Assembly: GCA_938009235.1 (NCBI GenBank)
Contig: CALLIK010000009.1
Coordinates: 124,001-188,000 of the forward strand
Reading direction: 5' to 3'
DNA: 64,000 nucleotides
Source: an uncultured Caulobacterales bacterium
GTDB taxonomy: Bacteria; Pseudomonadota; Alphaproteobacteria; Caulobacterales; Maricaulaceae
Under the pieces are notes generated by a model. It saw only the letters and a program-made list of their open reading frames with translations. It did not search any database and was not told the DNA's origin. This document shows positions 22,403-36,138 of this stretch, one piece after another. Within the stretch, counting starts at the first letter, position 1. Every line of letters begins with the position of its first letter. Position numbers and translations under genes: made by a program.

Positions 22403-22810
22403 TTACTTACGCGTTGGTAACCACGGCACAACGGGGGCTTCTGGTGTTGGCCAAGCTTGCGGCGGCGGGGTGTAAATGGGTGGTTCTATATAAATTGGAG
22501 GGGTGGGGACGTGCTCTGGTGCAGCCACAACGTGTGGCTGCGGAAGAGGCTGCGGGGCCTCGCAACAGACTGTGGGCGTGATATGGGCCACATGATCAAT
22601 GCGGTAGAGTTGGGTGCCATAACCACAAGGTTGGCTCTGCATGCAGCCTGATCGTAACATTGGGGGCGATGTGTAGCCCATCACTTGTGAGCCATAACGA
22701 GATTTGATTTGAGATTGCCCGTGTTGAACAGGTACGCAGGCGCTGACTATAAAGGCCAAACCAAGCGAACTTAGAAGAGAAATGTGAAGTGATTTGCGAG
22801 ACGTTTTCAT
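22403..22810 (-). CDS. Proline-rich lipoprotein of unknown function
   Basis: I do not recognise the family. The 135-residue product has a lipoprotein signal peptide with lipobox IVSAC near residue 25. The mature part has a Ser/Gly/Tyr-rich segment with several cysteines (RSGCMQSQPCGYG, PTVCCEAP) and a C-terminal proline-rich tail (VPTPPIYIEPPIYTPPPQAWPTPEAP). It lies antisense to the operon between ruvC and ruvA and ends 7 nt from the ruvC stop. The proline-rich tail could span the periplasm or bind the wall. Codon usage looks ordinary and the signal peptide is good, so I take it as a real gene. Confidence 0.7.
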   Translation of the reverse strand: MKTSRKSLHISLLSSLGLAFIVSACVPVQHGQSQIKSRYGSQVMGYTSPPMLRSGCMQSQPCGYGTQLYRIDHVAHITPTVCCEAPQPLPQPHVVAAPEHVPTPPIYIEPPIYTPPPQAWPTPEAPVVPWLPTRK

Positions 22811-23608: not shown

Positions 23609-24634
23609 GTGAGTGAAGATCGTATCATATCTGCGGAAACGCAAACGGGCGACGTTCGAGATCGGGCGCTGCGCCCACTCGCGTTTGATGATTTCGTCGG
23701 CCAAGCCACAGCGATTGCAAACCTAAAGGTTTATGTCGCCGCAGCGCGTCGACGTGGTGAACCTTTGGACCACCTTTTGCTGTCGGGTCCGCCAGGTCTA
23801 GGTAAGACTACCTTGTCGCAGATCGTGGCGCGCGAATTAGGCGTGAACTTCCGCTCCACGTCGGGTCCGATTATTTCGAAAGCGGGGGACCTTGCGGCGC
23901 TGCTGACAAATCTTGAGCCGAATGACGTTCTCTTTATTGATGAAATTCATCGCCTCAACCCTGTTGTCGAAGAGGTTCTTTATCCTGCGATGGAGGATTT
24001 TGAGCTGGACCTGATTATTGGCGATGGTCCTGCTGCGCGTTCAATCAAGATTGATATTGCGCCCTTTACGTTGATCGGAGCCACCACACGTGCAGGCCTT
24101 CTCGCGACACCTTTACGGGACCGCTTTGGTATTCCTGTACGATTAGAATTTTACGATGTAGATGATCTGACCCATATCGTCACGCGGGCGGCGGGGAAAC
24201 TCGGCATGAATATGACGCCTGATGGTGCGCGCGAAATTGCGGGCCGCGCAAGGGGGACGCCGCGCGTTGCGGGACGTTTGCTTCGCCGCGTGCGTGATTT
24301 GTCTGAACATGCAGGCCATGCTGTCGTGGATTCAGCCGTCGCGGATGCAGCTCTGAAACGCCTTGGCGTCGATGACATTGGCTTGGACAAGCAAGACATG
24401 CGCTATCTGCATGCGCTCTGCGAGATGTTTGGAGGCGGTCCGACGGGGGCAGATACGTTAGCAGCGGCTCTCTCAGAAGCCCGTGATGCGTTGGAAGATG
24501 TGATTGAGCCTTACCTCATTCAGCAAGGTTTTCTACAACGGACGCCGCGTGGCCGCGTCGCGACTCCGCGCGCATATGCGCATCTGGGTCTGAACCCTCC
24601 TGCCAAGTCCTTACCGCCAGTGTTTGAGGGGTAG
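23609..24634 (+). CDS. ruvB: Holliday junction branch migration helicase RuvB
   Basis: This AAA+ ATPase drives branch migration with RuvA. Walker A is [10 protein letters not shown], Walker [16 protein letters not shown], with sensor 1 in [10 protein letters not shown] and a C-terminal winged helix ending in [23 protein letters not shown]. The tracked ORF begins at a TTG inside ruvA; the GTG at 23609 gives the usual N-terminus [12 protein letters not shown] and lies behind an AAGG sequence. The predicted length is then 341 residues. It is directly followed by ybgC. Confidence 0.96.
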
Positions 24635-24636
24635 TG

Positions 24637-25134
24637 ATGTCTACAGAAACTAAAATAGACTCATTTAAAAAGGACGAGGCGCATATCGCAGCTTGCGACT
24701 TGCCTTCGATGGGGTATTTCGAAGGACGAGAGCACTATTACCCTATCCGCGTTTTTTACGAAGATACGGATTTTTCTGGCGTGGTTTATTATGCGAACTA
24801 CTTGCGGTTTTTGGAACGTGCGCGCTCTAGTTTCTTTCGCCTAGCAGGGATTGGCCATGCTGAATTGCTAGAACGTGATCCACCATTGGCCTTTGTTATT
24901 CGCAAGATCAATTTGGACTATAAAGCTAGTGCCCGGATCGACGATGTGCTGTCTGTGATGACATCATATGATGTGTTCAAAGGCGCGAGGCTTCTTGTGA
25001 CACAGAAAATTTTCAGAGACGGACAGCTTATCCTCACAGCAGACAGCGAAGCCGCCTGCATCGACTTAACGGGACGTCCAAGACGCGCTCCGAAAGAGAT
25101 GATGGAGAAGTTGCGGCCCTATTTGGCGAGTTAG
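24637..25134 (+). CDS. ybgC: Tol-Pal-associated acyl-CoA thioesterase YbgC
   Basis: This hot-dog-fold thioesterase usually heads the tol-pal cluster and acts on acyl-CoA or acyl-ACP, possibly in phospholipid metabolism. The segment VFYEDTDFSGVVYYANYLRFLERARSSFF contains the catalytic Asp. I place the start at the ATG at 24637 (a GTG lies directly before it, overlapping the ruvB stop). It is about 165 residues long with a short N-terminal extension. Unusually, three extra genes separate it from tolQ. Confidence 0.93.
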   Translation: MSTETKIDSFKKDEAHIAACDLPSMGYFEGREHYYPIRVFYEDTDFSGVVYYANYLRFLERARSSFFRLAGIGHAELLERDPPLAFVIRKINLDYKASARIDDVLSVMTSYDVFKGARLLVTQKIFRDGQLILTADSEAACIDLTGRPRRAPKEMMEKLRPYLAS

Positions 25135-25231: not shown

Positions 25232-25762
25232 ATGACCGAAATTCAATATACAGATTATACTCCTTGGCCTGAACGTAAATGCGCAGACCCGCGCGTTGCT
25301 ACGCAGGCTCAATATAACCACGGCCTCTGCGAGATTATCCAGTTTCAAGGCCCTATGCAGGCGCTTGAACTGTTTCAAGCTTACGGAAAAGCCAGTGGCC
25401 TGTTGAAGATCGCTGCGTCCGTTCGTCGTCGTTTTGAACATGCTTTGTTGAAAGCTGAAAAGGCTGGCGTGATTTTAATCGAACGCGAAACAGACCCTGA
25501 AGCCAAAACTCCTGAAGATAGTATTGGTTGGATTTGCCGTTTGCCAACTCAACCGCCTGTCATCGTCCGTGATTTGGGCACAAGAGGTTTTGCCGAAGTT
25601 CCAATGAGCGAACTTGCTGATTTGGTGCTCGAAATTCGCAATGTAGATCCGAAGATAGAGAAAGAGGGCATCTACCGCGCTGTTCTCGCTCATTATGAGC
25701 TACAGAAATTGACAGCCCTCGTGCGTCGCCGTTTGGACGTCGTTCTTGAGATGTTTTTTTAG
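25232..25762 (+). CDS. Stand-alone DUF3320-like protein (helicase-associated C-terminal domain)
   Basis: The 176-residue product resembles the DUF3320/winged-helix C-terminal part of large superfamily I helicases of the DUF4011 type, but here it is encoded alone. Two similar halves are visible: LCEIIQFQGPMQALELFQAYGKASGLLKIAASVRRRFEHAL at residues 30-70, and VPMSELADLVLEIRNVDPKIEKEGIYRAVLAHYELQKLTALVRRRLDVVL at residues 120-172. In the large helicases the same order occurs (GP...L...R...FE.AL, then VP..ELA...R...). Its stop overlaps the GTG start of the DUF3088 gene by one base, so the two are coupled. Function is unknown; nucleic-acid binding is an inference from the fold. Confidence 0.7.
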   Translation: MTEIQYTDYTPWPERKCADPRVATQAQYNHGLCEIIQFQGPMQALELFQAYGKASGLLKIAASVRRRFEHALLKAEKAGVILIERETDPEAKTPEDSIGWICRLPTQPPVIVRDLGTRGFAEVPMSELADLVLEIRNVDPKIEKEGIYRAVLAHYELQKLTALVRRRLDVVLEMFF

Positions 25763-26118
25763 TGGGTCGTGACGACCTCTACCTGTTGCCAGCTGGGTTT
25801 GCCGACAATGACCGCCGCGAGTATTGTCCTGAATGCGCAGAAATTTGGGGCGTGCTTGCCTATTATCCTGCGATCAAAGAGTCGCTTGAGATAACCTATC
25901 AGCCTATTTCAAAACCACGCCCAAAACTGGTGGCGCGATTGGGTGACAAGACTCAAAACTGCCCGACACTCGTATTGAGTGCGGACAGTCCAATGTTTGA
26001 AAATTGCGGAATTATGATTCTTAACGGAGAGCGCTTTATCAATAATGCTCGCGATATAGGCCGATATTGGGCCCAAAGATTTGGAGCGGCCGTTCCGCGT
26101 GGAACAGGACCGCTCTAG
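25762..26118 (+). CDS. DUF3088 family (thioredoxin-like) protein
   Basis: This 118-residue cytoplasmic protein matches the DUF3088 pattern: GRDDLYLLPAGFADN, then a CPEC pair where family members carry a cysteine motif, a central KPRPKLVARLGDKTQNCPTLVL segment, and a C-terminal FINNARDIGRYWAQRFGAAVPRGTGPL. The fold is thought to be thioredoxin-like and the function is unknown. It starts with GTG, overlapping the stop of the DUF3320-like gene by one base, so both probably act together. The pair is inserted between ybgC and tolQ. Confidence 0.78.
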   Translation: MGRDDLYLLPAGFADNDRREYCPECAEIWGVLAYYPAIKESLEITYQPISKPRPKLVARLGDKTQNCPTLVLSADSPMFENCGIMILNGERFINNARDIGRYWAQRFGAAVPRGTGPL

Positions 26119-26159: not shown

Positions 26160-26570
26160 TTAGCCAGTCGTCGGCGCGCCCATCGTTTCGCCTAGACCAG
26201 GGCCAACAGGGCCAATTTCAACTGTGGCGTCGCAGAAGTTGGTGATCTCAGTTTGATTTCCCGTTTGAGGGTCGATGATAACGTAGAAAACTTCGGCTTG
26301 TTTGATAATAATGTCTTGTGATGTGCGCTGCTCTAGCGGCTCATAGGGTTCGTTATCAATATAGCTAATGCCCACCACTGTTTTAGTATCAGCCGGGATT
26401 TCTACACGTTGTAGTGCGCTAACTTCATAACAGAGCGGCGCAGTCGGGACTTGTACCGCCACTGGCGCTTGAACCACTGGCGCTTCAACAGGTTTTGGAA
26501 TCACGTGACACGCGGACAAAGCGGCTGTGGATGCCGTTAATATGGCAATAGTTTTGATAGACAGGCGCAT
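26160..26570 (-). CDS. Lipoprotein of unknown function
   Basis: The product (136 residues from the ATG at 26570, which has a GGAG ribosome-binding site; the tracked ORF starts at an upstream TTG) carries a lipoprotein signal peptide MRLSIKTIAILTASTAALSAC. The mature N-terminus has repeated Pro/Val/Ala motifs (PVEAPVVQAPVAVQVP), followed by a small globular part with SYIDNEPYEPLEQRTSQDIIIKQAEVFYVIIDPQTGNQTEI. It lies antisense between the DUF3088 gene and tolQ. I recognise no named family. Confidence 0.7.
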   Translation of the reverse strand: MRLSIKTIAILTASTAALSACHVIPKPVEAPVVQAPVAVQVPTAPLCYEVSALQRVEIPADTKTVVGISYIDNEPYEPLEQRTSQDIIIKQAEVFYVIIDPQTGNQTEITNFCDATVEIGPVGPGLGETMGAPTTG

Positions 26571-26788
26571 GGCAGTCTCCAATTGGGGGTTTATTCGACC
26601 CTATATGATTGTTTTGCCTAAATTATGACAAAATGAGGCGAAATTTGGTCACTTATAGTAAAAGTGTTTAAGGATAGGCTTAAGGTTTAGTTATTAGAGC
26701 TTACAAACGCTTAACTGGCCCTGAATGGATGATACCGTTAACCCGAGTAAACAGAATCAAACTGCAAAAGATTTAGACAAGGACCTCC

Positions 26789-27520
26789 ATGATCGACTTA
26801 ATCTTCCAGGCTAGCCCGATGGCCGATGTTCATAGCGGTGATTTTTCGTTCCTATCGCTTTTCCTAAGGGCAGATTGGGTCGTGAAATCTGTCATGATCC
26901 TTTTGGCCGTCGCCTCCATTTGGTCTTGGGTGGTTGCTGTTGACAAATTCATCATGTTTACGATGCTGAAACGACGCGCCACAGCCTTTGAGGACACGTT
27001 TTGGTCAGGCCGCACATTGGATGACTTGTCCAAAGCTCTTGGCAGCGATACGCGTGACCCGATGGCGCGCGTTTTTGCGGCGGCTATGCGTGAATATAAT
27101 GAAAGCCGAAATGCTCAGGCAACACCTGGTGTGTTAGGACGCTCGAGCGCGACACATGAGCGTATCGATAGTGTGATGAATTTAGTCATCAATCGTGAAC
27201 TGGCCAAGGCCGAGCGTGGTATGACGGTTTTGGCGACAGTGGCTTCGGCGTCAGTATTTGTAGGACTGTTCGGGACGGTTTGGGGCATTATGAATGCGTT
27301 CCGCGCGATTGCGATCAGCCAGAACACGAACCTCTCCGTTGTTGCTCCTGGTATTGCTGAGGCTCTCTTTGCCACGGCGTTGGGCCTTATAGCCGCGATT
27401 CCTGCGCTGATTTTCTACAATATGTTTACCGCAGACCTTGATAAGTATGGCGGCCGCTTAGAAGGTTATTCAGACGAGCTCTCCGCAATCCTGTCTCGCA
27501 AATTGAGCAAAGGAGCTTAG
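26789..27520 (+). CDS. tolQ: Tol-Pal system proton channel TolQ
   Basis: TolQ forms with TolR the proton-driven motor that energises TolA for outer-membrane constriction at division. The 243-residue protein has three membrane segments (around residues 30-50, 145-170 and 180-205). The conserved ATVASASVFVGLFGTVWGIMNAF and IAEALFATALGLIAAIPALIFYNMF segments are present. It starts a fresh transcription unit after a 206-nt upstream gap and is followed 4 nt later by tolR. Confidence 0.96.
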   Translation: MIDLIFQASPMADVHSGDFSFLSLFLRADWVVKSVMILLAVASIWSWVVAVDKFIMFTMLKRRATAFEDTFWSGRTLDDLSKALGSDTRDPMARVFAAAMREYNESRNAQATPGVLGRSSATHERIDSVMNLVINRELAKAERGMTVLATVASASVFVGLFGTVWGIMNAFRAIAISQNTNLSVVAPGIAEALFATALGLIAAIPALIFYNMFTADLDKYGGRLEGYSDELSAILSRKLSKGA

Positions 27521-35235: not shown

Positions 35236-35269
35236 ACGGGCATGTGTCGTAAAGACATGTGCCCGTTTT
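35236..35269 (+). terminator. Intrinsic terminator of ftsH
   Basis: ACGGGCATGTGTC pairs with GACATGTGCCCGT over 13 positions (two G-U) around a GTAAA loop and is followed by TTTTC. It also abuts the stop of the convergent TonB/TolA-like gene. Confidence 0.85.
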
Positions 35270-36138
35270 CATTTGTCGTACTGACGTCGAAATTCTGTTG
35301 CAGCAGGCTTAAGTGTTTTGCAGTTTTTCTTCATCAAAGTTTCCCCTGCGTCACTTTTGACAACGCTATAATCACAGGCTTTGTTGACCCCATGCAGTGC
35401 ATCCCAAATGGGGCCGTCGATGCCGATGCCCGGTAAAATCATAAACCCATTTTTACCTGCACTTGGAATGCCAAGACGCTCTCGGATTTGCTCTTCACTC
35501 ATTCCGTAAAAATCAGAGTTGCTCAAACCTGAATGCGCATAGCTGGGCATCCAAACAAGATCGGTCTCTGAGAGTTGTTCCTCGGCGAATACGTTTTCCC
35601 TAAGGTCTGCGCAGTCTACTGAGAACCCTTTGAGGCAGTCGAGATTTTGTTGAAACTGGCTTTTTTCTTGGGTCATTTTATCCAGAGATATGCGTGCGCC
35701 CGACGGCAGTCGCCAACGCTCAGGTATGAGGACCGCACCAGTGTCTGCAGGCGAGGCTTGGAGTGGAATGTTGGATACGTTGACGGGCGGTTGAATGGGA
35801 TTTGGCGACGGTGGGTTTACGTCTAACTCAATTACACTCTCGTCTACAGGCGCGCTTGGTGATTCTGGAACACTGTTTAAAGGATCGTCTCTCTCTGCGG
35901 AAACTGGTGCTGGGGTTGCTTTTGTAGGAGGTGTTGCCTCAGCGGGTTGCGCAATGATGGGTGCGGGAGCTCGGTCTTCAATAATCAGTTTTACGGGAAT
36001 GGGAAGTGGCGCTGATTTTGCGGGTAAGGGGCGATGTTGGGTAATGGTGACCGCAACTCCGATATGCAAAGTGAGCGCAACGAAACAGGCGACTGCATAT
36101 CTCCCTCGCTCTTGTGATGTCAGCCCGCCCTTGGTCAT
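35269..36138 (-). CDS. Inner-membrane anchored, proline-rich TolA/TonB-like protein of unknown function
   Basis: The 289-residue product has one N-terminal membrane helix (YAVACFVALTLHIGVAVTITQ) and a long Pro/Ala-rich periplasmic stretch (residues 35-135), like TonB, TolA and FtsN-type proteins. Its C-terminal 150 residues do not resemble the TonB domain; they contain four cysteines (NLDCLKGFSVDCADLRE, KACDYS, KKNCKTL) that could form disulfides, and a segment SFYGMSEEQIRERLG-like (DFYGMSEEQIRERLGIP). It converges on ftsH and is divergent from folP. I do not recognise the family. Confidence 0.75.
   Translation of the reverse strand: MTKGGLTSQERGRYAVACFVALTLHIGVAVTITQHRPLPAKSAPLPIPVKLIIEDRAPAPIIAQPAEATPPTKATPAPVSAERDDPLNSVPESPSAPVDESVIELDVNPPSPNPIQPPVNVSNIPLQASPADTGAVLIPERWRLPSGARISLDKMTQEKSQFQQNLDCLKGFSVDCADLRENVFAEEQLSETDLVWMPSYAHSGLSNSDFYGMSEEQIRERLGIPSAGKNGFMILPGIGIDGPIWDALHGVNKACDYSVVKSDAGETLMKKNCKTLKPAATEFRRQYDK

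Follow-up and report, generated by a model that had tools for sequence, protein, structure and literature searches.

DUF3320 lies in the tail of large anti-phage helicases, of which it is a little-studied part, and a domain survey found that MTES_1575 proteins end in two winged helix-turn-helix (wHTH) domains overlapping DUF3320 (PMC3710099). DUF3088 has been placed in the thioredoxin-like clan (PMC3091736). We analyzed a stretch of 64,000 nucleotides from an uncultured Caulobacterales bacterium, referred to as the window, in which a small gene resembling the helicase tail (gene A) immediately precedes a DUF3088 gene (gene B). Based on the profile comparisons, structure predictions, and gene-order data presented herein, the explanation that we favor as a whole, and to which we give a probability of roughly 55%, is that A is a free-standing, DUF3320-type tandem wHTH protein and a putative nucleic-acid binder, and that A and B do not form an obligate system.

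The gene order in the window is ruvC, ruvA, ruvB, ybgC, A, B, a lipoprotein-like gene on the opposite strand, and then tolQ-tolR-tolA-tolB-pal-cpoB (Table 1), where the tol, ruv, and cpoB names are those we take to apply from established knowledge of these sequences and from the conserved gene order in relatives. A sequence-only reading of this DNA had proposed the two open reading frames with their one-base overlap and had claimed that they break the normal ybgC-tolQ junction, and on both points our analysis agrees. In other members of the family (L104, L105, genus g12) ybgC can be followed directly by tolQ, and the junction is thus interrupted in the window, where a third gene, the lipoprotein-like gene found at the same position in relatives, breaks it as well. 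This gene has an LSAC lipobox and no match in a Pfam scan, it is conserved at this position across the family with 34-69% identity, and it travels with tolQ when tol-pal relocates (G003 and L102). A second small lipoprotein-like gene (22403-22810, minus strand) lies opposite to and splits ruvC-ruvA; it is poorly conserved (33-42%), with a position common to close relatives. A promoter and terminator scan of the region gave terminators at chance level. The genome to which the window belongs (G000) is 2.79 Mb in size and 94.8% complete.

Table 1. Positions of gene A, gene B, and associated features within the window.
Feature	Position	Strand	Description
Gene A	25232-25762	+	176 aa, ATG start, TAG stop; tandem winged-helix (DUF3320-type), stand-alone
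Gene B	25762-26118	+	118 aa, GTG start; DUF3088, thioredoxin/GST-N-like fold, CPEC motif
A/B stop/start junction TAGTG	25760-25764	+	one-base overlap; the G of the TAG of A is the first base of the GTG of B
ybgC	24634-25134	+	4HBT thioesterase; upstream neighbor, closes the ruvCAB-ybgC block
Lipoprotein-like gene	26160-26582	-	separates B from tolQ; convergent with B
tolQ	26789-27520	+	first gene of tolQRAB-pal-cpoB
Gene T	35269-36138	-	TonB/TolA-like, 289 aa; homologues upstream of DUF3088 in relatives

Single-sequence scans with Pfam, PHROGs, and NCBIfam assigned gene A to no confident family. Pfam gave no match, the gathering score of DUF3320 (PF11784) not being reached, and among 24 relatives of A the DUF3320 model matched one (E 0.012). 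NCBIfam returned a weak match to the last 120-140 positions of the anti-phage protein ProA (NF058533, E 0.022) and PADLOC a match to the last 120-140 positions of the anti-phage protein PDC-S37 (E 1e-4), and the C-terminus of PDC-S37 was matched by all 24 aligned homologues of A (best 2e-8). Since the DUF3320 model does not match A, profile-profile and domain-level comparisons were needed, and for these we collected DUF3320 helicases from the phylum and compared the last 230 residues of each with the A family. Using hhalign, the two aligned with a probability of 97% (E 1.4e-10) in a single collinear alignment that covers residues 35-173 of A and spans both of its helix-turn-helix (HTH) units, and the Pfam DUF3320 model corresponds to the first HTH of the aligned tail region. 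The controls, for which we used a DUF3088 profile, other segments of the helicases, and profiles that were column-shuffled or reversed, all remained below 5% probability. As an independent line, a tblastn search of plasmids retrieved a Deinococcus protein of 1049 aa that contains an AAA_12 helicase and an MTES_1575 nuclease and ends in an A-like domain, which is 33% identical to A over about 155 residues (BLASTP), including the N-terminal Y..W...DPR motif of A, and also a Microbacterium plasmid protein (MTES_1575 with a weak DUF3320 match) whose terminal domain is 29% identical to A and whose plasmid carries a DUF4011 gene. The earlier suggestion that A looks like the DUF3320 region of large SF1 helicases is therefore borne out by the profile comparison and by the Deinococcus tail, and these comparisons, which are of sequence, show that A and the DUF3320 module at the C-terminus of defense-type SF1 helicase/MTES_1575-nuclease proteins have a common ancestor.

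That A has no helicase attached, as had also been noted, is evident from its length and from the AlphaFold2 model built with the alignment (pLDDT 92, pTM 0.85), which consists of two HTH units and no other domain. The first unit (residues 25-103) is predicted to be a winged HTH, with helices 25-39, 44-54, and 62-78 and strands 82-85 and 100-103, and so combines the three-helix HTH and beta wing of a winged helix, and the second (residues 125-175) is a wingless three-helix HTH with helices 125-138, 144-154, and 162-175. When the model was compared with the PDB by Foldseek, the matches were weak and of the winged-helix kind, no E falling below 0.001, and among PDB sequences the A profile likewise found weak matches, with NSE3 at an E of about 0.1. 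The third helices of the two HTH units carry invariant basic residues, R65 in the first and R166 and R167 in the second, and we propose that the two units would bind nucleic acid through these conserved basic helices. A is probably a small nucleic-acid-binding protein and might serve as a DNA-binding regulator or an architectural protein, although winged helices can also be protein-protein modules.

Homologues of A were found as stand-alone genes in 29 of the 137 genomes of the family of the window, and homologues are also present in records of Hellea, Litorimonas, and Robiginitomaculum; two other alphaproteobacterial families have distant stand-alone homologues, in four genomes in all, and a wider sample of 399 genomes of the phylum added no further homologue. 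Among 24 aligned sequences 46 positions are invariant, and the five sequence pairs with an estimable dS gave dN/dS ratios of 0.017-0.082 (dS was saturated in two further pairs), which demonstrate, at the level of codon substitutions, strong purifying selection on A. We regard A as a real gene because of this selection and its homologues in 29 family genomes, and an origin from phage is not supported since 50,697 phage records contained no homologue of A. One genome bin (G001) has two copies of A (L008 and L051), each at a locus resembling tol-pal; T and DUF3088 accompany one copy and are absent from the other locus, and a duplication or a mixed bin is possible. In genomes of one genus of another alphaproteobacterial family, the distant homologues of A (L094, L095, and L096) adjoin a gene whose product is an IalB-like secreted protein.

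Homology to nothing more than the tail of the helicase-nucleases is what a decaying remnant of a lost defense helicase would display, but purifying selection, with dN/dS at most 0.08 where estimable, and a nearly uniform length of about 172-178 aa with strong conservation across genera and families make this explanation extremely improbable. A different proposal is that A still acts, now in trans, within a DNA repair or defense machine in which another helicase, for example RuvAB, which is encoded just upstream, has replaced the lost one. It would agree with the homologous module belonging to helicase-nucleases, even if it acts there in cis, and with the position of A, which often comes directly after ruvCAB-ybgC and has remained with ruvB-ybgC where tol-pal has relocated, as in G003. 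In other genomes, though, A adjoins sdhA-efp, ccmF, or other genes away from ruv, and in G000 a search for either domain found no DUF3320 or DUF4011 helicase, making a helicase partner unlikely; by the same DUF3320/DUF4011 search, the SF1 helicase and REase combination is absent from the A protein and from the rest of G000. A helicase could still be missing from the assembly, which is 94.8% complete, and on balance we consider a trans-acting role of this type doubtful.

The one-base overlap invites the explanation that A and B are a functional two-gene module, in which the thioredoxin-like B would control how A folds or its redox state, or an envelope or redox response would be regulated by A, with the overlap fixing their stoichiometry. 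Both genes are present in 25 genomes of the family and lie within about 1.1 kb of each other in 15 of them, so the pair does exist outside the genome of the window, in 14 others. Nine of these 15 close pairs have the one-base overlap, one (G010) has a 5-nt gap, and five are split by another gene or by about 400 bases. Across the nine genomes, which represent two genera, the stop codon of A (TAA, TAG, or TGA) and the start codon of B (ATG or GTG) vary and the overlap persists despite these changes, and it therefore appears to be maintained. B is found in 25 of the 29 A-positive genomes compared with 48 of the 108 that lack A (p 5e-5, by a test that ignores phylogeny), and this above-chance co-occurrence leaves room for a functional link. 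Against such a module, no locus with A and B together was found in the other 10 genomes that hold both, and four genomes have A without B, one of which (G115) is 100% complete. Moreover, B has other upstream neighbors in relatives: it is overlapped by T by 4 bases in G055 and by 1 base in G003 (taking the most upstream start), it is overlapped by a gene for a secreted-type protein by 4 bases in G009, and it adjoins ybgC in G040. The three cysteines of A in the window (C17, C33, and C102) are not conserved in relatives, which gives no support to the idea that B operates a conserved thiol switch on A. We consider the two-gene module unlikely, and quite improbable the more far-reaching proposal that a winged-helix module akin to an anti-phage helicase-nuclease tail has become a core envelope or redox regulator in one marine alphaproteobacterial family, working with the DUF3088 protein of the same operon.

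Returning to the free-standing A protein without an obligate partner, the one-base overlap as the mark of an exclusive A-DUF3088 partnership is rejected, given the overlaps of B with other upstream genes, and the A-B overlap in the lineage of the window is a maintained local operon and not an obligate two-protein system. T has a conserved C-terminal motif (FYGMSE..IR..L..P.AG.NG), and its homologues, which have no Pfam family, lie between A and B in some relatives and upstream of B without A in others, the latter in G026 and genus g21. On the simplest reading, B would have long occupied its site after ybgC, with A and T as alternative or successive upstream neighbors. The association with tol-pal is similarly loose. 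In several genera A without B adjoins sdhA (sdhA-efp), ccmF, or other genes, and in G003 about 927 kb separate tolQ from the A-T-B block, which has remained next to ruvB-ybgC. The pair is thus neither obligate nor always beside tol-pal, a constant association with tolQRAB-pal being found for neither A nor B, and the gene neighborhood of A is shuffled, its tol-pal setting local and loose. What stands of the combined claim of the sequence-only reading is the DUF3320-type stand-alone protein; its coupling to DUF3088 inside tol-pal fares less well, and a specific A-DUF3088 coupling that is always next to tol-pal is not supported.

Gene B is a real gene as judged by its match to Pfam DUF3088 (PF11287; E 1.1e-25, 90.2 bits, above the gathering score of 26.4). 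Its model (pLDDT 93) has best Foldseek matches, with weak E-values, to KaiB and to omega glutathione transferases (their N-terminal domains), and of its two CxxC cysteines (CPEC in the window) the first, Cys22, does not vary among 17 sequences and the second, Cys25, hardly does, so that B combines a thioredoxin-type fold with a CxxC motif. We propose that B acts as a separate thioredoxin-fold CxxC protein with the ybgC-tolQ interval as its usual site, and the overlaps suggest that its translation is probably coupled to that of any gene located directly upstream.

The component parts of this locus are of known kinds, and among the papers searched, which hardly touch on DUF3320, DUF3088, and PDC-S37, we found no description of a conserved stand-alone DUF3320 tandem winged helix outside defense loci. 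The short and conserved A protein offers a simple handle on what the tandem winged helix binds, and A adds a case in which a module known from defense proteins persists as a gene of the housekeeping type. Comparing gene orders also warns that a one-base overlap alone is a poor guide to function. Compared with the known tol-pal cluster (ybgC-tolQRAB-pal-cpoB), the order in the window is canonical apart from A, B, and the lipoprotein-like gene between ybgC and tolQ, and neither A nor B belongs to the cluster constantly. B is the same as DUF3088 proteins in its Pfam match, CxxC motif, and thioredoxin/GST-N-like fold and differs solely in its gene neighborhood. With the tails of MTES_1575-type SF1 helicase-nucleases, PDC-S37, and ProA, A is collinear in both HTH units, and A and the helicase-nuclease tails have in common a GP before helix 2, a basic helix 3, an R....IP..EL linker, and a final GL.KLT..R.RL helix. 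Unlike these proteins, A is a single 176-aa gene without helicase, nuclease, or DUF4011 part, and unlike those defense helicase-nucleases it is chromosomal with ordinary neighbors. In A, a domain known from defense helicases exists in a conserved form of its own, present here as an ordinary chromosomal gene.
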